Positions 35,192-64,000 of a DNA stretch of 64,000 nt are shown one piece after another; the first letter of the stretch is position 1; every line of letters starts with the position of its first letter. The stretch is from assembly GCF_000970025.1 (NCBI RefSeq), contig NZ_CP009528.1:3397168-3461167 (forward strand). Direction: 5' to 3'. The notes under the pieces are model-generated. The model was given only the letters and a program-made list of their open reading frames with translations. It searched no databases and was not told the origin of the DNA. The stretch is from Methanosarcina barkeri MS. Lineage in GTDB: Archaea; Halobacteriota; Methanosarcinia; Methanosarcinales; Methanosarcinaceae. Made by a program: the position numbers and the translations under genes.

Positions 35192-35867
35192 TGGACATCA
35201 CCACTTTTTACACTTAGCTCTGGCACTGATTTTTTTGAAGAATTTAAAATCCTTTTTAGTATAAACTAAAAATAAAGAGTTACTCAAGCTGTAACCAGAT
35301 AACACCATAAGAAAAACTGGTGGATTAGATCAGCAGGTTTCTTTATTTTTACTCATTTATGACTATAGGATTTCATATATGATTATAAATAGCAAATTAA
35401 ATAGGTAAATAGTTTCAAGAATCACAATTTCTAATAAATAGTACATTTCAATTTAAATTAGTATGTGCCCTGTTTTTAGATGTTTTTACCCTGAAATTGA
35501 ATTGTTGGCAGCCTCGAAGATTGGAGTATTTATTACTCGCCACCTGTGCCAATATAATAAAACTGAAAGCTCTGTTATGATAACTAAAAGTTTGGTATCT
35601 ATTGCCTTGTCTGAGACAGTTGCCCCAGTGTCTATGAAATTATTACAGAAAATATGATTATTGGAGACATTCACCAGCAGGTCAACCAGTGATCTGTAGA
35701 AAACCTAAATCTGAAAGTAAAATTTCTTTTTAACCCAGATCAGAGCCAAAAGGAAAATTTACTATGGAAGTTTGAATCAAGAAAGAAGAGTTTAAGTAAT
35801 GAAAAGTCAAGATAGGTAAACTCAGGACTCCTAATAATATTATTATTAATACTATATAATTCAAAGA
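35192..35867. other. AT-rich spacer without supported gene
   Basis: Short frames on both strands near 35463-35674 overlap each other and have neither motif nor clear ribosome-binding site. Confidence 0.4.
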
Positions 35868-36251
35868 TGAAGAAATTTGAAAAATGAAAAGACGTTTACA
35901 GAAGATATTTATCTAAAAATATTAAAATCATTTTAAAATTCCCTTAAAATCTTTGTAATAAAAAAAATTATCGTAATAAATTTGCAGAATAACAAATCAT
36001 GCTAAAATAAACTTAAAATCACACATAAAAACGCGTAAAGAAACATTGTTACCACTGTGCTGTTAAAGAATAAAAAAATTTGAAAAATGAAAAGACGTTT
36101 ACAGAAGATATTTATCAAAAAATATTAAAATTGTTTTAAAAATTTTTTAAAATCTTTGTAATAAAGGAGATTTATCTTAATAAATTTACAGAATAATAAA
36201 TCATGCCAAAATAAAACTTAAAATCACATATAAAATGCATAAAGAAACGTA
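35868..36251. repeat. About 180-bp direct duplication upstream of surface protein A
   Basis: Both units begin AAATTTGAAAAATGAAAAGACGTTTACAGAAGATATTTATC (about 35874 and 36070, written here in part) and continue in parallel through AAAATCTTTGTAATAAA and AATAAATCATGC to ACTTAAAATCACA and TAAAGAAAC. They have diverged by point changes and small indels. The second copy forms the leader of gene A. Confidence 0.8.
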
Positions 36252-36298: not shown

Positions 36299-39200
36299 TT
36301 GAAGAAAAAAACAGGAATTTATAATGAAATATTTAGCAGAAAGTGGAGATTAATCTTCATTACTCTGGTTCTAATTTTTTCAGTAATTTCAATATCAGCT
36401 ACAGGAGCGGGAAGCCAAACCAACAGCCAGGCAAGAGACAAAGTAGTACATGAGTCAAACATTGGAGTAAGTAACGAGACAGAAGATAATTATTTGTATT
36501 ATATAGTAGACGAAAATTATACCGAAGTTAATTGCTTTGACTGCATGGAAAATGATGAAGATAACAATACAAAAGATGATTATTCTTCCTGCACAAAAAG
36601 TGACAAAAATTATACCGATAAATGCTCTTACTGCATAGAAGATGAAGAAAATCTTGAACAAAAAGTAGGAGAAAACAAAAGTAAGGAAAATCAAGAAACA
36701 GGAGAAAATAATACTAAATTAGAAACAGGAACAGGAAAAAGTACAGAAACAAAAGAAAAAGTGGAAAATAGTACTAAATCAGAAACAGAAAAAAATACAA
36801 CAACTCAAAAAACAGTAGAAAATAATACTAAATCAGAAACAGGAACAGAAGCAGGAAAAAATACAACAACTCAAAAAACAGTAGAAAATAATACAAAATT
36901 AGAAACAGAAACAGGAAAAAATACAACAACTCAAGAAACAGGAGAAAATAATACTAAATCAAAAACAGAAACAGAAGCAGGAAAAAATACAACAACTCAA
37001 GAAACAATAGAAAATAATACTAAATCAAAAACAGAAACAGAAGCAGGAAAAAATACAACAACTCAAGAAACAATAGAAAATAATACTAAATCAAAAACAG
37101 AAACAGAAGCAGGAAAAAATACAACAACTCAAAAAACAGTAGAAAATAATACAAAATTAGAAACAGAAACAGAAGCAGGAAAAAATACAACAACTCAAGA
37201 AACAATAGAAAATAATACTAAATCAAAAACAGAAACAGAAGCAGGAAAAAATACAACAACTCAAGAAACAGGAGAAGACATTGAGCAAGAGACTGACCTA
37301 GCTGACTCTATTTTACATTACAAAGTGTATAAAATAGAAGAAAACAAAAGTAAGGAAAATCAGGAAACAGGAGAAAATAATACTAAATCAAAAACAGAAA
37401 CAGGAAAAAATACAGATAGCAAAGAAAATATCAAAGGAAATGAATCAAAAAATTCAGAAGCTAATGTATCTAATTTGAAATATAAAACAATAACAGTAAA
37501 TGAAACAGTTGAAAGGGAAAACAAATCAGAAAGTAACGATACAGATAGCAAAGAAAATATAAAAAAACGATCAAAAAATTCAGAAGCTAATATATCTAAC
37601 TGGTATAAAACAATAACAGTAAATAAAACAGTTGAAAGGGAAAACAAATCAGAAAGTAACGATACAGATAGCAAAGAAAATATCGAAAAAAACGAATCAA
37701 AAAATTCAGAAGCTAATGTATCTAACTGGTATAAAACAACAACAGTAAATAAAACAGTTGATCAGGAAAACGAATCAGAAAGTAACAATACAGATAGCCA
37801 AGAAAACATCGGAGAAGATAACCAAAAAAGTTCAAAAAGTGGTGGGTCTAACTGTAAATGCAAAATAATAGCATCAAATAAAACAGTTGCTCAAGAAAAT
37901 GAATCAAAAAGTTCAGAAAACAATGTATCTAATTTGAAATATAAAATAATAACAGTAAATAGAACCATCACCCAAAACAATACCAAAACGAAAAATGAAA
38001 CAAAAAATGAAACAATCAATGAGTCGAAAAGTCTGAAAAGTACAGAAGTGGAAACTAAAAATAGAACCAAAACCTCAAATGGGATCTCAAACGAAACTTC
38101 AAATGGAACCTCAAACGGGACCTCAAATGGAATCTCAAACGAAACTTCAAATGGAACCTCAAATGGAACTTCAAACAGCACAAAAAGTGTGGAAAGCGAA
38201 GTATTGAGCCCTGAAGTAAACTGGACGGTGGCAAGTCAGGAAGTAAATAAAATAAAAGTATATAATTGGACAGGCAGTCAGGGAAACGAGTCTGTAACAC
38301 CTAAGGTAAAAACCGAGAGAAATAGCTGGAACAATATTAAATTTATACTGTCGTATTCATATCCACTTCGTTCGTTTTATACCACAAAAGACAATGTGAA
38401 TATAAGTTATAATGGACCTGGAACTTTAGGGCAGCAGAAAGTAGACATTTACCTCATCAAGGAATACAGCCCGAGTTCTCCGGAAAATGAGATTTTATAT
38501 GGTACAAATAAAAGCACGATTAGTCTTGAAGATGTCTTAAACAATGATACAGAAGCTTATGTAAAGATACCTGCGACCCTGAACAAAGAAGGAGACCTTA
38601 CTCCCCTGACACTGGACCCTCTTCAGGCAGGCCACTACTGGATCATTATGACCCCTGCAGGAAACGAAACGGAAAAAACAGGATCGGAAAAAGAGGTTCT
38701 TTTAGCAAAATATTTTGAAGTTCTCAAATACCAAATGGAAGACAGATCTCCATATGCCCTTCAAGAAGGCAAAAACTTAGACGTTAACCTGGATCTGAAG
38801 AATGCGACCGCTGAGAAGAATTATACTTACTGGGCTATAATGATAAAAGATGGTGCCTATACAGCATTTGAAGGCACAAACCCAAGATGGAGAATGAACA
38901 CCGGAATCAGACCTATCGTGAACGGAGTTGACCTTATCAAGGTTTTGGAAACCAATTTGAGTAAATATGAATCCAAAAACGGAAAAGATGAACTTCAGAA
39001 TGAGATCCAGACCCTTATAGGGAAAGATAACGGTACGATAAGCATAGGTGAGAAAACCCAGAGTAACCTTTCCCTGAAAAGTTTGGAACTTCCCCCAGGA
39101 GACTATCTCCTCCTTACAGGAACCTATGGAAATAATGAAGGCTTGACAGGTATAACCCAGAAAAAACTGAGAATATCCCCCAAAAGCTTATCTGGATTAG

Positions 39201-39448
39201 GCTTGAACCCCAGCTCAGAAAATACCTTCGGTGATGAATCTTCAAAGAAATTCAAAGCATCTCCACTTATGGAAATTAAGTCTCTTCTCGAAAATCCAAA
39301 ATCATTCATACTCGAAGATGTCAAGCCATATATTCAAGCAAACTCATTAGCAGAAGTCTTACGAAATCCTCCAAAACTTCCCTCCTTCTTGTTGGGCTTT
39401 GCAGTAACCCTACTGGTAGGATTCGCAGTGCTGAGGAAAAAGAAATGA
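36299..39448 (+). CDS. Surface protein A: glycosylation-rich stalk, ligand-like domain, C-terminal anchor
   Basis: The start is TTG at 36299 behind AAGGGGTG, matching the start context of gene E. Residues 18-40 form a signal peptide or membrane helix. Residues about 160-330 hold nine or so copies of a 22-residue Thr/Glu/Asn unit (TEAGKNTTTQET core). Residues about 350-560 hold four copies of a roughly 43-residue unit (SEANVSN, TVNKTV, ENKSES core). SNGT/SNET repeats follow. Nearly every unit has NxT/NxS sequons. From about residue 670 the globular domain shared with B and E begins (SYPLRSFY to PPGDYLLLTG). The last 22 residues are a membrane helix ending RKKK. Its role is unknown; it is probably an envelope protein on a glycosylated stalk. 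Confidence 0.85.
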   Translation: MKKKTGIYNEIFSRKWRLIFITLVLIFSVISISATGAGSQTNSQARDKVVHESNIGVSNETEDNYLYYIVDENYTEVNCFDCMENDEDNNTKDDYSSCTKSDKNYTDKCSYCIEDEENLEQKVGENKSKENQETGENNTKLETGTGKSTETKEKVENSTKSETEKNTTTQKTVENNTKSETGTEAGKNTTTQKTVENNTKLETETGKNTTTQETGENNTKSKTETEAGKNTTTQETIENNTKSKTETEAGKNTTTQETIENNTKSKTETEAGKNTTTQKTVENNTKLETETEAGKNTTTQETIENNTKSKTETEAGKNTTTQETGEDIEQETDLADSILHYKVYKIEENKSKENQETGENNTKSKTETGKNTDSKENIKGNESKNSEANVSNLKYKTITVNETVERENKSESNDTDSKENIKKRSKNSEANISNWYKTITVNKTVERENKSESNDTDSKENIEKNESKNSEANVSNWYKTTTVNKTVDQENESESNNTDSQENIGEDNQKSSKSGGSNCKCKIIASNKTVAQENESKSSENNVSNLKYKIITVNRTITQNNTKTKNETKNETINESKSLKSTEVETKNRTKTSNGISNETSNGTSNGTSNGISNETSNGTSNGTSNSTKSVESEVLSPEVNWTVASQEVNKIKVYNWTGSQGNESVTPKVKTERNSWNNIKFILSYSYPLRSFYTTKDNVNISYNGPGTLGQQKVDIYLIKEYSPSSPENEILYGTNKSTISLEDVLNNDTEAYVKIPATLNKEGDLTPLTLDPLQAGHYWIIMTPAGNETEKTGSEKEVLLAKYFEVLKYQMEDRSPYALQEGKNLDVNLDLKNATAEKNYTYWAIMIKDGAYTAFEGTNPRWRMNTGIRPIVNGVDLIKVLETNLSKYESKNGKDELQNEIQTLIGKDNGTISIGEKTQSNLSLKSLELPPGDYLLLTGTYGNNEGLTGITQKKLRISPKSLSGLGLNPSSENTFGDESSKKFKASPLMEIKSLLENPKSFILEDVKPYIQANSLAEVLRNPPKLPSFLLGFAVTLLVGFAVLRKKK

Positions 39449-39642: not shown

Positions 39643-41602
39643 AGTTTTATTATTTGCTCACATATCTGTCTAGAATTTTTAATTAGTCCAGGTATAAGAA
39701 ATAGACCATAATATACTATTCAATGACAATACCTTTCTGGTTAAAAAAACATAAAAAGGAGAGGTTGGAGAAATTGCTTTCTGAAGAAATTAAGCTAATG
39801 AAGCCCATTTTCACATTTATCGAAAATCAAGAGAATAAAGAAAGTTTGAGACTCCTGTTTTTGCTTCCTGTTTTCCTGTTCCTGATTATTTCTCCAGGAG
39901 CAGCTGCATCAAGCAACTGGGAACTTAACCCCCAAAATCCCGTTGTTGGGGATATGATGACAATAAAAGGAACCGGTTTTGAGGGAGATACTGCAAAAGT
40001 GCTGGTATCCTTCGAAAAAGATGTGGAGGTTCAGGATGGAGAATACGAGTACTTGCTTGAAGATGTAGTAATTCCCTCCAGCTCCTACAATAGTTTTACC
40101 GTGCAGGCAGAAGGAGTAGAGGATCTGAATGTGAGAGCAAAAATGCTCTTATGGTTAACTAAAAGCGCAGAGACAAAAGACGGCACTGTTACCGTTTCCC
40201 AGGCAAATGTTCCACCAGGAACATATAAGATAAGAATTGACGGAAAGGCAAGTGGTTCTAGTGTCAAACTCAAGATAACAGCCATGCAAGAGATAGAAGT
40301 AGATTCTGATGGAAATTTCAGCTATCAATATAATACTAAATCCATACCTGCAGGCGATTTTGCAGTAAATGTTGAGGGCATTACAAAGCAAATAGAATTA
40401 CAGACATCAGAAAGCCTTTCTTCGGAAACAAACTCTTCGGAACATAACTCGAGTGAAGAACAAAATAAAGAAAGTCTGCCTTCAAAAATGAACTCATCGG
40501 GACAGAATTCAAGTGAAGAAAAAGATAACGAAAGTTCTGGAGATACATCTGAAATAAAAATATATGACTGGACAGACAGTCAGAGAAACGAGTCGGCAAT
40601 AACTGGGATAAAAACAGAGAAAAATAGCTGGAACAATCTGAAATTTATATTGTCATATCCTTATTCTCTTCGTCCGTTTTATACCGTAAACGAGAGCTTA
40701 AAGTTAAGCTACTATGGACCTGAAACTTTAGGACAGCAGAATGTGGACATTTACCTCATTAAGGAACACAGTCCGTGTTCTCCGGGAAAAGAGATTTCAT
40801 ATAGTATGAATGAAAGCACGATTAGTCTTGAAGATGTCTTAAACAACGATACAGAAACTTATGCCAAGATACCTGCAACCCTGAACAAAGAAGGAGACCT
40901 TACTCCCCTGACAATGGGCCCTCTTCAGGCAGGCCACTACTGGATCCTTATAACCCTTGCAGGAAACGAAACGGAAAAAACAGGATCGGAAAAAGGAATC
41001 CTTTTAGCAAAATATTTTGAAGTTCTCAAATATCAAATGGAAGCCAGAACTTCATATAACCTTCAAGAAGGCGAAAACTTAGAAATAAACCTGGATCTGA
41101 AAAATGCACCCGCTGAGAAGAATTATACTTACTGGGCTGTGCTGATAAATGATGGTGCCTATACAACATCTGAAAACACAAACTCAATCTGGACGACCAC
41201 CAAAATAAGGCCTATTGTGAACGGAATTGACCTTATCAGGAATTTGGAAACCAATTTGAGTGGAAATGAATCTGAAAATGAAAAAGACGACATTCAGAAC
41301 GAGATCCAGACCCTTATAGGGAAAGATAACGGTACGATAAGCATAGGTGAGAAAAACCAGAGTAACCTTTCCCTGAAAAGCCTGGAACTTCCCCCAGGAG
41401 ACTATCTCCTCCTTATGGGAGCCTATGAAAATAATGAAAGTCTGGCAGGCATAGACCAGAAAAAGCTGAAAATATCCTCCGAAAATTCGTATGGATTGGA
41501 CTTGAAATCTATATCCGGAAAATACCTCAAGTATATCTTCAATGGAGTTAAGAGCCTCTCCGCTTATGTGAATTAAGTCCATTCTCAGAAACTTAAAATC
41601 AC

Positions 41603-43051
41603 CCCATTTGTCATCGGTTAAGGATTCATTTCCTTCTCCTGTTATTCATTTTTGAACCCAATTCTTTCATTTTTTATTCAAACCATTCATCTCTAAACCT
41701 TTCTCTGTTTACATGTGGATCTAATGCTTGACTTTCATATACGCTCATTATCGTTTCAAAAGTTCTTTGAATTCCACACATATATAGAATTACTGTCAAC
41801 AAATCTGATGCATTTTCTGCAAATATTGTACTCCAACGTAACTGTGTATATCTAGCCATTTTTTTAGGATAAGTTATTGAGTTTCTTACAAGAGAATAAA
41901 TTCTTCTGCTAACGATTAGTGTCAATATTGCTGTCCAGATTAGAGCTTCAATTACCTGCACATTCTTTGTTTCAAGAACGTCCAGCGCATATTTGCTTTT
42001 CAATTCCTTAAACAACAGTTCTATGTCCCATCTTGCTCCATATAGGTTTGCAATGTCTTTTGCATTCAAAATATCTTTCTGAATATTTGTGATATAAATA
42101 TGGTACTTTTCATCCTCGTCATTATAGACTGCAACAAGACGTACAATCATCTCATCCTGTTTTTGTTTACCTTTGTATGCTCTTCTTTTAAACTATATTT
42201 TCACAACAGCATCAAGATCTTTCCCAGAAAGTTGTTTAATGCATTCACTAACAGTTTTTCCAGCGAACTCCTTGCTTTTTGTTTTAGAAAGTCCCACTTC
42301 AACAGAAACAAGAATAGGATCCATATTTTTCCTTATTCTCGAAACAAAATATCCTCCATTTTCCTTAACCCTTGCAAACATCTGAGTTTTGTAAAAACCA
42401 AGATCAACAAGCAGAATACGATCTTTGATCCAGGGACCTATTTTTAATGTTTTGATCTCAGCTGTTTTTTCAGAATACAGGGCAACTGTTTTAGGTTCGT
42501 TAGCAACTGCGCTTACCATAACCCCCACTTTTATGCCTGCAGCTACTTTTCTTGTCCTTACCGCTGGAAACTTATCTGCTAAAGAAGAGTGAAGACGAAC
42601 AATTGTACTGTCCTGAATGAGAACATCCTGGAAGTTTTCGAGTTTTTTGCTAAGTTTTCTTCCAGGATCTTTTGCAAGCTCCTCTATGCCGTGAATAACA
42701 CACTGATGAAGAAACTCAACAAGTTCTGGAGTAAAACGATAGTATCAGCTGCTATCACTTATTGTTTTTTGTGACTCAGTTTCATATTCTCGTTTTAAAC
42801 TGGCAAGTGTACGCTGCAAGCGTACACCAAAACTCAGAGTTAAAACCCAATAATGACAGGGTCAATTTTACGTTCACGTACTATAAGACCAGTTTCTTTG
42901 GCAGCTTGCCTTAACCACTCTTCGGGAAACATTTTCCGAAGAGAGTCTTCAAGAGTAGGTGGGAAACGAGGAGACATAGATTCAAAGAGTATAATATTAG
43001 TATAAAAACATATACAGGAGATGGGATTTAATGCTTAACCAATGACCAATG
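41603..43051 (-). mobile_element. IS4-family insertion sequence, 1.45 kb, 8-bp target duplication
   Basis: The left end CCATTTGTCATCGGTTAAG and the inverted right end CATTGGTCATTGGTTAAG match at about 16 of 18 positions. AAAATCAC flanks both sides (41595-41602 and 43052-43059). The element lies in the 3' part of surface gene B. Its transposase is degenerate. A single copy of the same end occurs at 59498-59515. Confidence 0.88.
41674..42977 (-). pseudogene. IS4-family transposase with frameshift, TGA and TAG
   Basis: The ATG at 42977 begins MSPRFPPTLEDSLRKMFPEE. A one-nucleotide shift occurs near 42838-42845. The next frame runs LQRTLASLKREYE to SDSS, then TGA at 42745-42747 (where Trp would fit, before YYRFTPELV). 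It continues through FQDVLIQDSTIVRLH to LDAVVKI, then TAG at 42193-42195, then FKRRAYKGKQKQ. The final part has the IS4 YREK signature (YGARWDIELLFKELK). TAG can mean pyrrolysine in Methanosarcina, but the TGA and frameshift show a dead gene. Confidence 0.85.
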
Positions 43052-43235
43052 AAAATCACTCATATCCAAAGATTTCAAGCATACCTTCAGGCAAACTCAT
43101 TATTAGAAGTCTTAAGAAATCCTCCAGAACTTTACTCCTTCCTGTTAGGCTTTGCAGGAACCCTACTGACAGGGCTTGCGGCACTTAGGAAAAAGAAGCA
43201 AGCCCTGATAAAAACCGAAAAATCGGAAAAAAATT

Positions 43236-43354: not shown

Positions 43355-43942
43355 AGTTTTATCACTTATTATTATATCTATCTAGAATTTTTATAATTAG
43401 TCCACATTATGAGACATAGGCCATAATACAACTATTTAATGGATAATAGCCTTTTCAGTCAAAAAAATACCAAGAAGAGAGGTTCAAGAGATTGCTTCCT
43501 GAAGAAATTAAGCTAATAAAGCCAGTTTTTACATTCATCAAAAACCCTAAGAACAAAGAAAGTTTGAAACTCCTGTTTTTGCTTTCTGTTTTCCTGTTTC
43601 TGATTCTTTCTCCAGGAGCAGCTGCATCAAGCAACTGGGAACTTAACCCCCAAAATCCCGCTGCTGGAGATATAATTGAGATAAAAGGAACCGGTTTTGA
43701 GGGAGATACTGCGAAGGCACAGGTATCCTTCGAAAAAGATGTGGAGGTTCAGGATGGAGAATATGAGTATCTGCTTGAAGATGTAGTAATTCCCTCCAGC
43801 TCCTACAATAGTTTTACCGTGCAGGCAGAAGGAGTAGAGGATCTGAATGTGAGAGCAAAAATGCTACTGTGGATAACTAAAAGTGGAGAGGCAAAAGATG
43901 GCACTGCTACCGTTACCCAGACAAACGTCCCTGCAGGAACAT

Positions 43943-45081
43943 TAGGAGTTACGCAGTTGGCTCCTAGCATATTGTTTTTTCCAAACTTTCAAATATTTGA
44001 ATTAATTTAACGTGTATTGGGGATTCCTTAAGTATTCTGTCACTGCCACTCTTCTAATTTTCATAGCACTTTCAAACCAGGATATTCCACTTTTGATTCT
44101 TTGTAATTCCAGTCTAAGAAAAGCTCTTAATGAGAACATTATATGTGCTCTTTGTGATTCTTCCTTTCTTGCCTGACATTTTTCGACACCACAGAACTGT
44201 TTTATTCCCCTATGATATTCCTCAATTTTCCATGACTTCTTTGCCAAATCTTCACGTTTTGCTTCATCCATCTCTTGCACATCTGTAACCCAGTGTTGCG
44301 TGTCTCCATTTTTTGAAACTATCCTAAACACCTTTACAAATCCATATGCTTTGAGGTGAACCACACGTCCTTTTGGAGGAATATCTACTGTTTCAAGTGG
44401 CACATTTCCCTTGTTGTCAGGATTTACCAAACGATTATTTTTCAATCTTGTAAGGAAATGCCACTCTTTCTGTCTAATGGCTTTAAGGTTTTTCACACTT
44501 GCATACCATGTATCAAATAAAACGAATTTGGGATTAAAACCACGTTCTTCGGCCTTGTCAAGCATATCACGGAAATGGTCATTCTTTGTTTTGTCGTCTA
44601 CATCGATGTTATAAATTCGAAAATCGATAGGTATAACGGTTGTACCGTCAGTCCAAACTAAGGTAACCAGGCCTATTCCCTTTACAGTACGATGATGTTT
44701 TCCACTCCACATACGACGAACAAAAGCAATTTCTTCTGCGTATGGTTTATCTAATGTTGAATCATCAACAATTAGGTATCCTCCCTTAAGCTTGACATAA
44801 CTTTTTACTTCCTCCCATAGTGCTTCCGTGTCTGGAGGTTGCCTTTGAAGGCAACGAGTAAAAGCATCATGAGAAGGAGCATTAGCTATGTCTGGATAAC
44901 ATCTAGCAGCTTCAGTACAGCTAAAAACGTTAGAAGCCGCAATGAGAAAATTAATGTAGTCAATGTCGGTACACTTAGGTGGATTTATGTCCATAACTCC
45001 GTACGTTTTTAGAGAAACACTAAGCCATAAGTATATTTATAAAGATATCAAGTTTTCGGCATTTTAACTGCGTAAGTCCTA
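43943..45081 (-). mobile_element. Insertion sequence, 1139 bp, 5-bp target duplication
   Basis: The terminal inverted repeats are TAGGAGTTACGCAGTT and TAGGACTTACGCAGTT (15 of 16). AACAT is duplicated at 43938-43942 and 45082-45086. It carries one apparently intact transposase gene. Confidence 0.9.
44002..44994 (-). CDS. DDE transposase (IS701/IS4-like superfamily)
   Basis: The 330-aa protein appears complete. Acidic motifs are LIVDDSTLDKPYAEE (about 75), FVLFDTWYAS (about 158) and KIEEYHRGIKQF (about 262). The family within the DDE superfamily is not certain. It is the only gene of this IS and reads against surface gene C. Confidence 0.87.
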   Translation of the reverse strand: MDINPPKCTDIDYINFLIAASNVFSCTEAARCYPDIANAPSHDAFTRCLQRQPPDTEALWEEVKSYVKLKGGYLIVDDSTLDKPYAEEIAFVRRMWSGKHHRTVKGIGLVTLVWTDGTTVIPIDFRIYNIDVDDKTKNDHFRDMLDKAEERGFNPKFVLFDTWYASVKNLKAIRQKEWHFLTRLKNNRLVNPDNKGNVPLETVDIPPKGRVVHLKAYGFVKVFRIVSKNGDTQHWVTDVQEMDEAKREDLAKKSWKIEEYHRGIKQFCGVEKCQARKEESQRAHIMFSLRAFLRLELQRIKSGISWFESAMKIRRVAVTEYLRNPQYTLN

Positions 45082-45780
45082 AACATATGAAATCAGGATC
45101 GACGGAAAGGCAAGTGGTTCTAATGTCAAACTCAAGATAACAGCCACGCAAGAGATAGAGGTAGATTCTGATGGAAGTATCAGCTACCTATATAGTACTA
45201 AGTCTATACCGGCAGGCGATTTTGAAGTAAATGTTGGAGACACTGCAAAACAGGTAGAATTACAGTCTGAAGAAAACCTCTCTTCGGAACAGAACTTGAC
45301 TGAAGAACAAAATAACGAAAACCTGACTTCGGAAACAAACTCTTCGGAACAGAACTTGACTGAAGAACAAAATAATGGAAGTTCTGAAGATACATCCCAG
45401 AAAGAGCTGAAAACATCTGGTGGAAATTCTCAAAGAGCGAGCTTGATATCCAGCTCGGAGAATTCTACTGGAGACAATATCACTAATATTTCTTCAGTGA
45501 CAAACAAAATATCTTCGCTTATGAGAATTAAGTCCATTCTCGAAACTCCAAAATCATTCATAGCCGAAGATATCAAGCCATACATCCAGGCAAACTCATT
45601 ATCAGAAGTCTTAAGAAATCCTCCAAAACTTCCCTCTTTCCTGTTAGGCTTTGCAGGAACCCTGCTGATAGGGCTTGTGATACTGATGAAAAAGAAAAAG
45701 TGATAAATTAAATAGAAGACTAGACTGGAAAATTTCCATTCAGCCTTAACAAAAACAGAAAATCTTGAAAAAAAGATTAT

Positions 45781-47152: not shown

Positions 47153-48316
47153 TTGAAGAAAAAAATAGGAACAAATGGAATAGATATGAGGAAATGTAAA
47201 TTAACCTTCGCGGCTCTAATCTGCATTTTCGCACTTATTTCAGTATCAGCCGCAGTTTCCGAAAAAGGACTCTGGATTGCATCTATCGAGAAAAACGGAG
47301 ATAGCGTCGTCTTTGCAGACCATGATGATAGCCAGGACGAGGGAGGATGGATTCAACTCAGCGGAGGACAAGAAATCCAGCTTCCAGAACCACTTAGCTT
47401 TATCTACAATGGAACCAACTGTGTTGAAAAAGCAGGAACTGTGGTTAAACTAAACAAGGATAGTAACACGGAAGTGAACTATACATACCCATACTCCACA
47501 CATCCATTTTATACTGATGGCCAGAAAGTAACAATGACCTATAATGGTCCTTCAGCTTTTAAGAATCAGAAAGTGAATGTTTACCTTGTCAATGGGTCTA
47601 GTGTGAGTTCCGTCAAAAAAGCCATTGTTCTTGCGGGTAACGAAAGCATAAACCTGGGACAAATTTTCGGAGAAGGTACGGATAATTCTTACATCAAATT
47701 ATGCGCGACTCTGGACAAGAAAGGAGACCTGCTTAAACCAATTACCTTCTACTCCCTTAAGCCCGGGAGTTACGGCATCATTGTAACACTTGCGGATGAC
47801 GAAGACAAAGAGAACACCAGCATGGAAAAGAAAGTTCTTTCAGCAACTGGCTTTGAAGTAGTTAACTATGAACTGAAAACAAAGGCAGACAACAATATGA
47901 AGGAAGGCGACAACCTTGATGTTACAATGAGCCTGAAAAAAGCACCTGCTGATGGAAAGTTTACATACGGTGCCCTGCTGATAAATGAAGAGGCTTATAA
48001 AGCTGAAATAAACGTCAGCAGCAATGGGACAATAGACGGGACCAATGTTTCCGTTAACGATATAGACCTCAGGGATCTGGGCATAAGCTCCACAAACAAA
48101 AGTGAACTTACAAACGCAGTCCAGACTCTTATTGGAGAAGGCAACGGTACGATAAGTATAAGCGATGAAAACCAGAACACCCTTTCCCTTACAACCTTTG
48201 ACCTCCAGCCAGGGAACTACCTCCTCTTTACAGGTGCCTATGAACCTGGCAAAGGCCTTGTAGGCATAGACCAGGATAAACTGACAATAAGTACAAAAGG
48301 AACCTCACCGATATAA
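47153..48316 (+). CDS. Secreted protein E: domain 2 without anchor
   Basis: The TTG start at 47153 follows TAGGGGTG, and the first residues (MKKKIG) match those of gene A. A signal helix covers about residues 16-34. A short beta-rich region (GLWIASIEKNGDSVVFAD) precedes domain 2 (YPYSTHPFYTDGQKVTM to LQPGNYLLFTGAY). The protein stops right after domain 2, with no membrane helix, so it should be released or bound by partners. Codon use is less A-rich than gene A. Confidence 0.82.
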   Translation: MKKKIGTNGIDMRKCKLTFAALICIFALISVSAAVSEKGLWIASIEKNGDSVVFADHDDSQDEGGWIQLSGGQEIQLPEPLSFIYNGTNCVEKAGTVVKLNKDSNTEVNYTYPYSTHPFYTDGQKVTMTYNGPSAFKNQKVNVYLVNGSSVSSVKKAIVLAGNESINLGQIFGEGTDNSYIKLCATLDKKGDLLKPITFYSLKPGSYGIIVTLADDEDKENTSMEKKVLSATGFEVVNYELKTKADNNMKEGDNLDVTMSLKKAPADGKFTYGALLINEEAYKAEINVSSNGTIDGTNVSVNDIDLRDLGISSTNKSELTNAVQTLIGEGNGTISISDENQNTLSLTTFDLQPGNYLLFTGAYEPGKGLVGIDQDKLTISTKGTSPI

Positions 48317-48461: not shown

Positions 48462-48498
48462 AAAAAGGTGGATTTCTTTATGAAACCACCTTTTTTTT
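48462..48498 (+). terminator. Terminator after gene E
   Basis: AAAAAGGTGG-A-TTTC-TTTAT-GAAA-CCACCTTTTTTTT is a strong hairpin with a T run, about 145 bp after the stop. Confidence 0.7.
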
Positions 48499-48500
48499 GA

Positions 48501-48794
48501 TTTTTCACTTTGATGTTTCATTTTGAGTTTTCACTTTGATGTTTCATTTTGAGTTTTCACTTTGATGTTTCATTTTGATTTTTCACTTTGATGTTTCATT
48601 TTGAGTTTTCACTTTGATGTTTCATTTTGAGTTTTCACTTTGATGTTTCATTTTGAGTTTTCACTTTGATGTTTCATTTTGAGTTTTCACTTTGATGTTT
48701 CATTTTGAGTTTTCACTTTGATGTTTCATTTTGAGTTTTCACTTTGATGTTTCATTTTGAGTTTTCACTTTGATGTTTCATTTTGAGTTTTCAC
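48501..48794. repeat. 26-bp tandem repeat, 11 copies
   Basis: The unit CACTTTGATGTTTCATTTTGAGTTTT recurs exactly every 26 bp from 48506 to 48766 with one or two base changes. The array directly follows the terminator of gene E. The sequence does not code. The rest of the spacer (48795-49187) is AT-rich and holds short repeats of ACTACTGGAAAACAGAAAA near 48953-49010. Confidence 0.92.
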
Positions 48795-62845: not shown

Positions 62846-63236
62846 ATGAAGAAAAGATAAAAAATAATAGAAAAGATAAAAAATAATAGAAAAGATAAAA
62901 AATAATAGGAAATATAAAAAGTAATAGAAATATAAGAAGTAATAGAAATATAAGAAGTAATAGAAATATAAGAAGTAATAGAAATATAAGAAGTAATAGA
63001 AATATAAGAAGTAATAGAAATATAAGAAGTAATAGAAATATAAGAAGTAATAGAAATATAAGAAGTAATAGAAATATAAGAAGTAATAGAAATATAAGAA
63101 GTAATAGAAATATAAGAAGTAATAGAAATATAAGAAGTAATAGAAATATAAGAAGTAATAGAAATATAAGAAGTAATAGAAATATAAGAAGTAATAGAAA
63201 TATAAGAAGTAATAGAAATATAAGAAGTAATAGAAA
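62846..63236. repeat. 18-bp tandem repeat array
   Basis: AGAAATATAAGAAGTAAT recurs about 17 times from about 62930 to 63236, preceded by three 19-bp units of AAAAGATAAAAAATAATAG (62861-62910). The long minus-strand frames through it (FLYFYYFLYF-like) are repeat artefacts. Confidence 0.93.
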
Positions 63237-64000
63237 ATATATAGGAGTGTACAAAACTTAAAACATAAAAGAAATAATAGAAAAAAAATCAAAACTGGAT
63301 AAAAACAGCAATAAAAAAAATGGAAAACTGTATTTATTTCTTTTTATACTTTATTATACTTCATTAGTTTCATAAATTTGTTAACTCTATTATAATTTGG
63401 GTACCTCCAGGCAAAAAGCTTACAGCTGAAGAACAAAATTGCTGCACAGACAGACATAAACAACAATGCACATACCGAGGTTTGTATTTCGATTGGTGAC
63501 GTCTTAGTTTCTCCTATTTGCCTTCATATGGTATTGAAAACACGTTTATGCAACATCCTTTTTAACATTTTCGGTACGTTTTGATATTTAAGAATTCCAG
63601 ACCTATTTTAGTACCTGCACAGGCTAAAGAGCAATTCGGAAAAAATGATTACAAGCCCAATTATAATGGTTTTCACTCATGAATATTCTAATTTTCCGGA
63701 TTATTTCTTTCTCTCTGGAAAGGTTGCAGTTTCTACAGGTAATTATCTACCGGAAGATTTCAACCTCGACTTTCTCCTTTTCTGTTAGCGGGCTATGATG
63801 AGTGTAATGCTTCCTATCTTCAGTAAACCGACGTGCTGGCTGATCGGGCGCGAGTTCAAAACTTCCTATTCTTTCTACTAGAATGTCTCCTTAAATTTAG
63901 TTTCTTCTCTTAACATGGAATGTCGCGCTCTCCAATTATTGAGTCATCTTGAGTCAGTATGCTATCATTTTTCTTGTTTTCTGCAGAGTCCTGCCTATCA
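63237..64000. other. Gene-poor end of window with a coding-like fragment
   Basis: The only coding-like piece is on the minus strand at 63747-63887: ILVERIGSFELAPDQPARRF, TEDRKHYTHHSPLTEKEKVE and a stop. No ATG precedes it and stops lie 4 codons upstream, so it is a remnant of an unrecognised gene. Nothing else is supported. Confidence 0.4.

Follow-up and report, generated by a model that had tools for sequence, protein, structure and literature searches.

A repeat-built, sequon-rich stalk in a predicted surface protein of Methanosarcina

Methanosarcina genomes have been reported to be rich in satellites, many of which encode repeats of surface proteins (PMC6749651, PMC2447325). Surface proteins of M. 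mazei are reported to bear glycans (PMC4350412), and the major S-layer protein of M. barkeri stains as a glycoprotein (PMC3361143). The S-layer tile protein MSTP (MA0829/MM1976/Mbar_A1758) is described, in the excerpts available, as an extracytoplasmic glycoprotein with a signal peptide, an acidic tether and a C-terminal membrane helix; its tether, of ~60 aa, adjoins the membrane helix (PMC3361143, PMC12369344).

Here we analyze protein A, which is encoded in a 64,000-nucleotide stretch of DNA (the window) of a Methanosarcina genome of 4.57 Mb in two contigs, labelled G000. The predicted plan of A is similar to that of MSTP. However, MSTP has tandem DUF1608 domains, whereas A lacks DUF1608 and matches no Pfam family at E<=1, and the long repeats of A would lie on the outer side of its folded domain rather than next to the membrane helix. 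Satellite-rich genomes and repeat-bearing surface proteins are thus already known from Methanosarcina, and the stalk of A is a variant on these.

Architecture and orientation of protein A

From N- to C-terminus, A consists of a predicted signal, a region with CxxC-like pairs, the repeat arrays, a TIGR04279 domain, a hydrophobic helix and a KKK tail (Table 1).

Table 1. Features of protein A and its paralogs; positions are counted from the first letter of the window.
Feature	Position	Strand	Description
Protein A	36299..39448	+	1049 aa; TTG start right after an in-frame stop
N-terminal secretion signal (predicted)	36299..36406	+	hydrophobic aa 14-39 (hydropathy)
Cysteine units CFDC, SSC, CSYC	36533..36634	+	putative distal stalk end
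22-aa array	36780..37276	+	Tandem Repeats Finder: 66 bp, 7.6 copies, 91% matches; two sequons per unit (NTT, NNT)
Short hydrophobic island LADSILHYKVYKIEENKS	37298..37354	+	between arrays; like islands by eye in G004, G029, G003
~42-aa array, core NVSNWYKTITVNKTV..ENES	37409..37889	+	Tandem Repeats Finder: 126 bp, 3.8 copies, 84%
CKC motif	37853..37861	+	putative stalk base
4-aa (NGTS/NETS) array	38071..38175	+	Tandem Repeats Finder: 12 bp, 8.8 copies, 75%; 24- and 48-bp super-units
TIGR04279 domain	38285..39175	+	aa 663-959; 205.6 bits vs cut-off 35; profile positions 28-316 of 316
C-terminal membrane helix + KKK, putative anchor	39374..39448	+	helix aa 1026-1047, then charged residues
Paralog B	39723..41576	+	N-terminal domain + TIGR04279; no in-frame anchor
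Paralog C	43492..45703	+	pieces 43492-44010 and 45083-45703; second ends in A's anchor type
Paralog D	47153..48316	+	secretion signal + full TIGR04279 (393.3 bits); no anchor

A preliminary description of this locus had proposed that three nested repeat families form a long, glycosylated stalk that keeps the C-terminal domain at a distance from the cell. Tandem Repeats Finder confirmed the three families, and all three arrays share one open frame. Over 37410-37810, the 126-bp array has 3.2 copies at 91%; its units 1-3 contain 4 or 5 sequons each and the degenerate last unit contains fewer. The term "nested" holds for the 4-aa array, where units lie clearly inside larger units; the arrays are otherwise consecutive. 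Two other tandem arrays were found in the window, one of 26 bp (48495-48794, 11.5 copies, 98% matches), a period that is no multiple of three, and one of 18 bp (62853-63241, 21.4 copies, 98% matches). Additionally, the AT-rich leader upstream of A contains a 128-nt direct duplication (35842-35969 and 36045-36172, 82% identical, 203 bases apart).

A has matches in 26 of the 30 genomes of the genus. We fetched 16 stretches from 15 other genomes and inspected 15 proteins that contain both stalk and domain, namely A and 14 relatives; the fifteenth genome, G027, yielded only a stub cut by a contig end. The stalk survey covered these 15 proteins among the long ORFs with TIGR04279. As in the window, rpL3 lies near the gene in 8 of the 16 stretches. 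It is absent from the 16-18 kb stretches of G022, G007 and G009, and some of the other stretches are short. One scan of genome contigs revealed a single locus, and viral contigs yielded no relative.

Hydropathy predicts only two membrane segments in A, the signal segment and the C-terminal helix, the latter with a KD19 of up to 2.29 at aa 1027. Judging by eye, we infer signal cleavage near ATGA/GS; the first 60 aa of A are matched in 10 of the 16 fetched stretches. Since the C-terminal helix and KKK are kept in 14 of the 15 stalked proteins, the exception being the G017 ORF, the domain would adjoin the membrane and the stalk would be the distal part. The stalk most likely faces outward as the free end of A, with the folded domain apparently at the membrane. 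This topology is the reverse of the one first proposed and does not agree with a C-terminal domain held off the cell by the stalk, as the C-terminus would be membrane-proximal.

PGF-CTERM substrates of archaeosortases carry a P-G-F motif at the C-terminus. The host genome encodes an archaeosortase, and the C-terminal motif of A is P/A-S-F rather than P-G-F. The last 101 aa match no NCBIfam family at E<=10, in a library that may or may not include the short PGF-CTERM model, and a profile of the anchor tail matched three sites in the genome, all inside A's cluster. We therefore rejected the possibility that the C-terminus of A is a general sorting tag.

Cysteines occur toward both ends of the stalk. 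CxxC units near the putative distal end number one in G003 and G013, two in G004 and five in G029, and cysteines are present 24-162 aa ahead of the domain in 12 of the 13 proteins listed, A included, being absent in G003. By eye, the stretches of A and G004 that seem equivalent to the CxxC units of G029 read NYLYY, EYSYF and GYSYI, a pattern that would fit joint loss of the two cysteines of a pair, and SSC in A lost one.

A lacks the first 27 positions of the TIGR04279 profile, while paralog D matches positions 1-316. Compared with the TIGR04279 proteins of NCBIfam, A shares the domain well over the cut-off, but its stalk stands where the start of the profile would be. TIGR04279 was detected in 61 of 185 genomes of the order, and the relatives inspected in G006, G008 and G010 have, in place of a stalk, a short N-terminal part ahead of the domain, along with a similar anchor. 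Therefore, the stalk is an added or substituted part. AlphaFold, in two runs of five sequences each, gave mean pLDDT values of 61 and 57, which are of low confidence. In a structural comparison of the first model, the best hits were macroglobulin/complement and Fn3/Ig-like chains, with Z up to 7.8. Foldseek gave TM-scores near 0.2, and a profile search of solved structures returned nothing below E 0.08. On these models the domain is beta-rich, perhaps with two Ig-like sandwiches. The literature searched nowhere names TIGR04279, and none of the titles or abstract openings found there on repeats, sequons or Methanosarcina surface proteins names such a stalk.

B, C and D are paralogous parts of A's cluster. 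B also has a Y_Y_Y match above its cut-off. Downstream of B lie transposase fragments (41674-42528) and a remnant of the cluster's own anchor (43091-43198), which was perhaps severed from B by stop codons and transposase fragments; stop codons within B's match to the C-terminal part of A are present in G003, G004 and G029, too. The two pieces of C lie on either side of a minus-strand transposase gene (44002-44994).

Sequon excess and its conservation between repeat units

A contains 66 N-x-S/T sequons, of which 57 lie in the 634-aa stalk and 47 in the interval first described as the repeat region (36780-38200, aa 161-634). The stalk count compares with 26.1 +/- 4.0 expected by residue shuffle (z 7.7) and 12.0 +/- 3.1 by a base shuffle that preserves codon position, and the two alternative forward frames contain 0 and 20 sequons. 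The excess is clear in the 22-aa array (15 vs 7.9 expected) and the ~43-aa array (19 vs 8.2), weaker in the 4-aa array (7 vs 3.9, p 0.02) and the linker ahead of it (4 vs 1.7, p 0.03), and not significant at p 0.05 in the first 120 aa, the spacer or the hinge. The domain is enriched as well (10 vs 4.0 expected). Among 25 chosen window ORFs that were scored, A has 6.3 sequons per 100 residues, paralog B 2.9 and paralog D 2.6, and the remaining 22 have 0-1.1 per 100 aa. The expectation of a long (~634 aa), hydrophilic stalk rich in N-glycosylation sequons was thus well founded. However, the shuffles take repeat copies as independent, which inflates z; therefore, the comparison between units and the relatives of A are better tests.

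We compared codons one period apart among the repeat units of four species (G000, G004, G029 and G003). The Asn of the sequon changed in 1 of 121 cases, the middle residue in 20 of 117 and other residues in 106 of 828. Asn outside sequons changed in 7 of 54 cases, significantly more often than sequon Asn (p 0.001). The S/T of the sequon changed in 7 of 122 cases, 4 of these breaking the sequon; changes out of the S/T class (4/122 vs 17/241 at non-sequon positions) did not differ significantly (p = 0.16). In a reversed-motif control, S/T-x-N was kept 31 times and lost 5 times, vs 116 kept and 5 lost for N-x-S/T (p = 0.05). The Asn and S/T codons of sequons show synonymous differences in 21 of 243 cases, so recent duplication alone does not explain the likeness of the unit copies. 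Within G029 by itself, the middle residue is likewise unchanged (0/22), and all of these unit-to-unit comparisons are mutually non-independent. The contrast between sequon Asn and middle residue suggests that the sites are under selection, for which the evidence is good in the case of Asn and modest in that of S/T. We take this selection for N-glycan sites to act in one clade.

Stalk turnover, sequon density and AglB number among species

The 15 stalks range in length from 339 to 979 aa; assembly gaps affect the two at the short end, G012 and G025. Each of the 13 gap-free stalks is a single open frame. The closest relatives of A, in G004 and G029, have domains 85 and 83% identical to that of A and repeat periods of 21/42 and 19/38 aa, respectively, vs 22 and 42 aa in A. 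The period is 13 in G022, G007 and G009. An old ~20-aa core, TQETVE..., is common to the units of several species, as judged visually and from an anchored count.

Near-relative species differ in stalk length. The stalk has 634, 750 and 740 aa in G000, G004 and G029, whose rpL3 DNA is 94-95% identical, and 439 and 390 aa in G005 and G028, whose rpL3 is 96.6% identical; all five are one- or two-contig assemblies. One 20-aa unit is present in 3, 4 and 5 copies in G025, G003 and G027 (rpL3 97.3-98.2% identical), where G003 is one contig and G025 and G027 are fragmented drafts, in which repeats can be mis-assembled. Repeat number therefore varies, as had been anticipated, in figures that compare species rather than strains, the genome set holding one genome per species. 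Across these species, stalk length and units appear to change fast.

Sequon density covers a wide range. Per 100 stalk aa, there are 10.3 sequons in G025, 10.2 in G003, 9.2 in G004, 9.0 in G000 and 6.4 in G029, followed by 4.9 in G013, 4.1 in G005, 3.8 in G028, 3.7 in G022 and 3.3 in G012, whose stalk is gapped and partly in the wrong frame (another frame before the gap reads NNTETQTET repeats). The lowest values are 0.8 in G023, 0.7 in G007, 0.6 in G009 and G024, and 0.4 in G017. In the domain tree, a branch with support 89/91, which is below the starred level, separates the five sequon-rich proteins from the others. Given this branch and the range of densities, sequon saturation is best seen as the trait of one clade. 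Moreover, because 5 of the 15 stalks are nearly sequon-free (0.4-0.8 per 100 aa), acting as a glycan brush cannot be the function common to all. Glycosylation would belong to a lineage and not be the general role of the stalk.

We considered and rejected a link to Type I/II Methanosarcina. PF08480 (disaggregatase-related) is present in 30 of 30 genomes and gives no separation. rnfA is present in 8 of 30; the stalks of three rnfA-bearing species have 0.6, 0.7 and 3.7 sequons per 100 aa and those of three species without rnfA also have fewer than 1, which is no clean split.

The host genome contains four loci for the oligosaccharyltransferase AglB above the profile cut-off; three are close together (G000:C2:3553481-3563217) and the fourth is at 688551-690962. 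A therefore combines the sequence features of archaeal N-glycoproteins, with sequons above chance and AglB in the genome. Among stalked species with well-assembled AglB, those with fewer than 4 sequons per 100 residues have 2 AglB genes and those with more have 3-5. Across 14 species, with the gapped G012 left out, AglB number and sequon density give a Spearman coefficient of 0.52 (p 0.055) with full-length genes only, 0.81 or 0.91 if the AglB pieces of the fragmented genomes G025 and G013 count as one or two extra genes each, and 0.90 for the 12 species excluding G025 and G013; the counts were made by hand, the clades are few and the test was conceived after seeing the data. Four full-length AglB genes are also present in G001, which has no match to A, and in G006, whose inspected ORF is stalkless.

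Proposed role, alternatives and known systems

From the architecture, the anchor-like tail, the sequon excess and its conservation between units, the turnover of units and the presence of AglB, all of them read from sequence, we infer the export, orientation, glycosylation, disorder, place relative to the S-layer and function of A. We consider it fairly probable that A is a disordered brush of N-glycans, tethered to the membrane and extending toward the S-layer or through it. A would be exported, its N-terminal signal removed, and the C-terminal helix would retain it in the membrane. The beta-rich TIGR04279 domain would sit beneath the S-layer or inside it, leaving the repeat region of ~630 residues as the outer, free part. 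In the host species and its near relatives, AglB would glycosylate many of the 57 sequons, and the N-glycans would make the unfolded chain a hydrophilic, protected brush that extends toward or across the S-layer and into the extracellular matrix. Slippage or recombination of tandem repeats would alter stalk length fast, while selection would hold the stalk hydrophilic and mostly acidic and, in the sequon-rich clade, would hold the sequons as well. A stretched polypeptide spans ~0.36 nm per residue. The fully stretched 634-residue chain would thus measure ~0.2 micrometre and could reach into the methanochondroitin coat of up to 170 nm that M. barkeri can bear (PMC12369344). The excerpts available of the Methanosarcina literature cited here contain no proteomic or expression evidence for A.

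Other explanations account for parts of these data. The stalk may be a length-tunable disordered spacer or entropic shield, for which bulk, charge and length around the anchored domain matter and the N-glycans of one clade are incidental. All 15 stalks are low in hydrophobic residues (13-27%) and 14 are net negative, whatever their sequons (the exception, G012, is gapped and partly misframed), and the 13-aa units of the G007 and G009 stalks (979 and 684 aa) are nearly sequon-free and under the shuffle mean (z -3.0 and -2.0). We nevertheless regard such a spacer as unlikely, if still a serious alternative, since in the sequon-rich clade the Asn of sequons is far more constant than other Asn (1/121 vs 7/54 changed) and sequons remain dense there though the units differ between species. 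A neutral origin, in which slippage of A-rich DNA produces disordered repeats rich in Asn, Lys, Thr and Glu together with sequons by composition, would fit a region that is A-rich (GC 0.27, AT skew 0.49) in a genus whose satellites are reported to lie in many cases within genes (PMC6749651). This origin is disfavored and seems very improbable to us: base composition alone yields 12 sequons rather than 57, the other frames hold 0 and 20, all 13 gap-free stalks are one open frame, and the pattern of change between units argues against it.

The orientation of the stalk also has an alternative. If the signal were an uncleaved anchor, A would be held in the membrane at both ends, and its stalk would form a glycosylated loop about the domain instead of a brush that projects. 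That A has just two hydrophobic segments and that cleavage was judged by eye leave room for such a loop, but the first segment resembles a Sec signal ending in the small residues ISATGA, and we give the loop little credence. Returning to the brush, we also entertain, as a rather doubtful extension, that it is evolvable, its sequon load tracking N-glycosylation capacity while units are replaced, and that cross-links between putative cysteine pairs at tip and base could join brushes into a mat lying under the S-layer or passing through it. Taken together, the preliminary description was right in its observation and half right in its proposed mechanism.

This locus presents one archaeal surface gene in which fold and anchor are constant and the stalk repeats and N-glycan sites differ between neighboring species. 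Because fold and anchor stay constant while stalk and sites change, comparison and gene deletion offer tests of the contribution that an N-glycan brush makes to the archaeal envelope. Halomucin of Haloquadratum is likewise a very long archaeal surface glycoprotein and, by description rather than sequence, differs from A in size and architecture. Mucin-like (Pro/Thr/Ser) stalks have a proline-rich PTS composition, unlike the stalk of A with 0.3% Pro and 15% Asn. The RIVW, LGxL, LVIVD and LGFP repeats are folded-domain repeats of 42-54 aa (PMC2447325), from which A is set apart by description only. The amino-acid tandem repeats of Borg elements, like the stalk of A as we picture it, are fast-changing, in-frame, disordered and enriched in extracellular proteins (PMC9879509, whose available text contains neither "glycosylation" nor "sequon"). 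Unlike the Borg repeats, A is a chromosomal locus next to ribosomal protein genes, and its repeats carry sequons.
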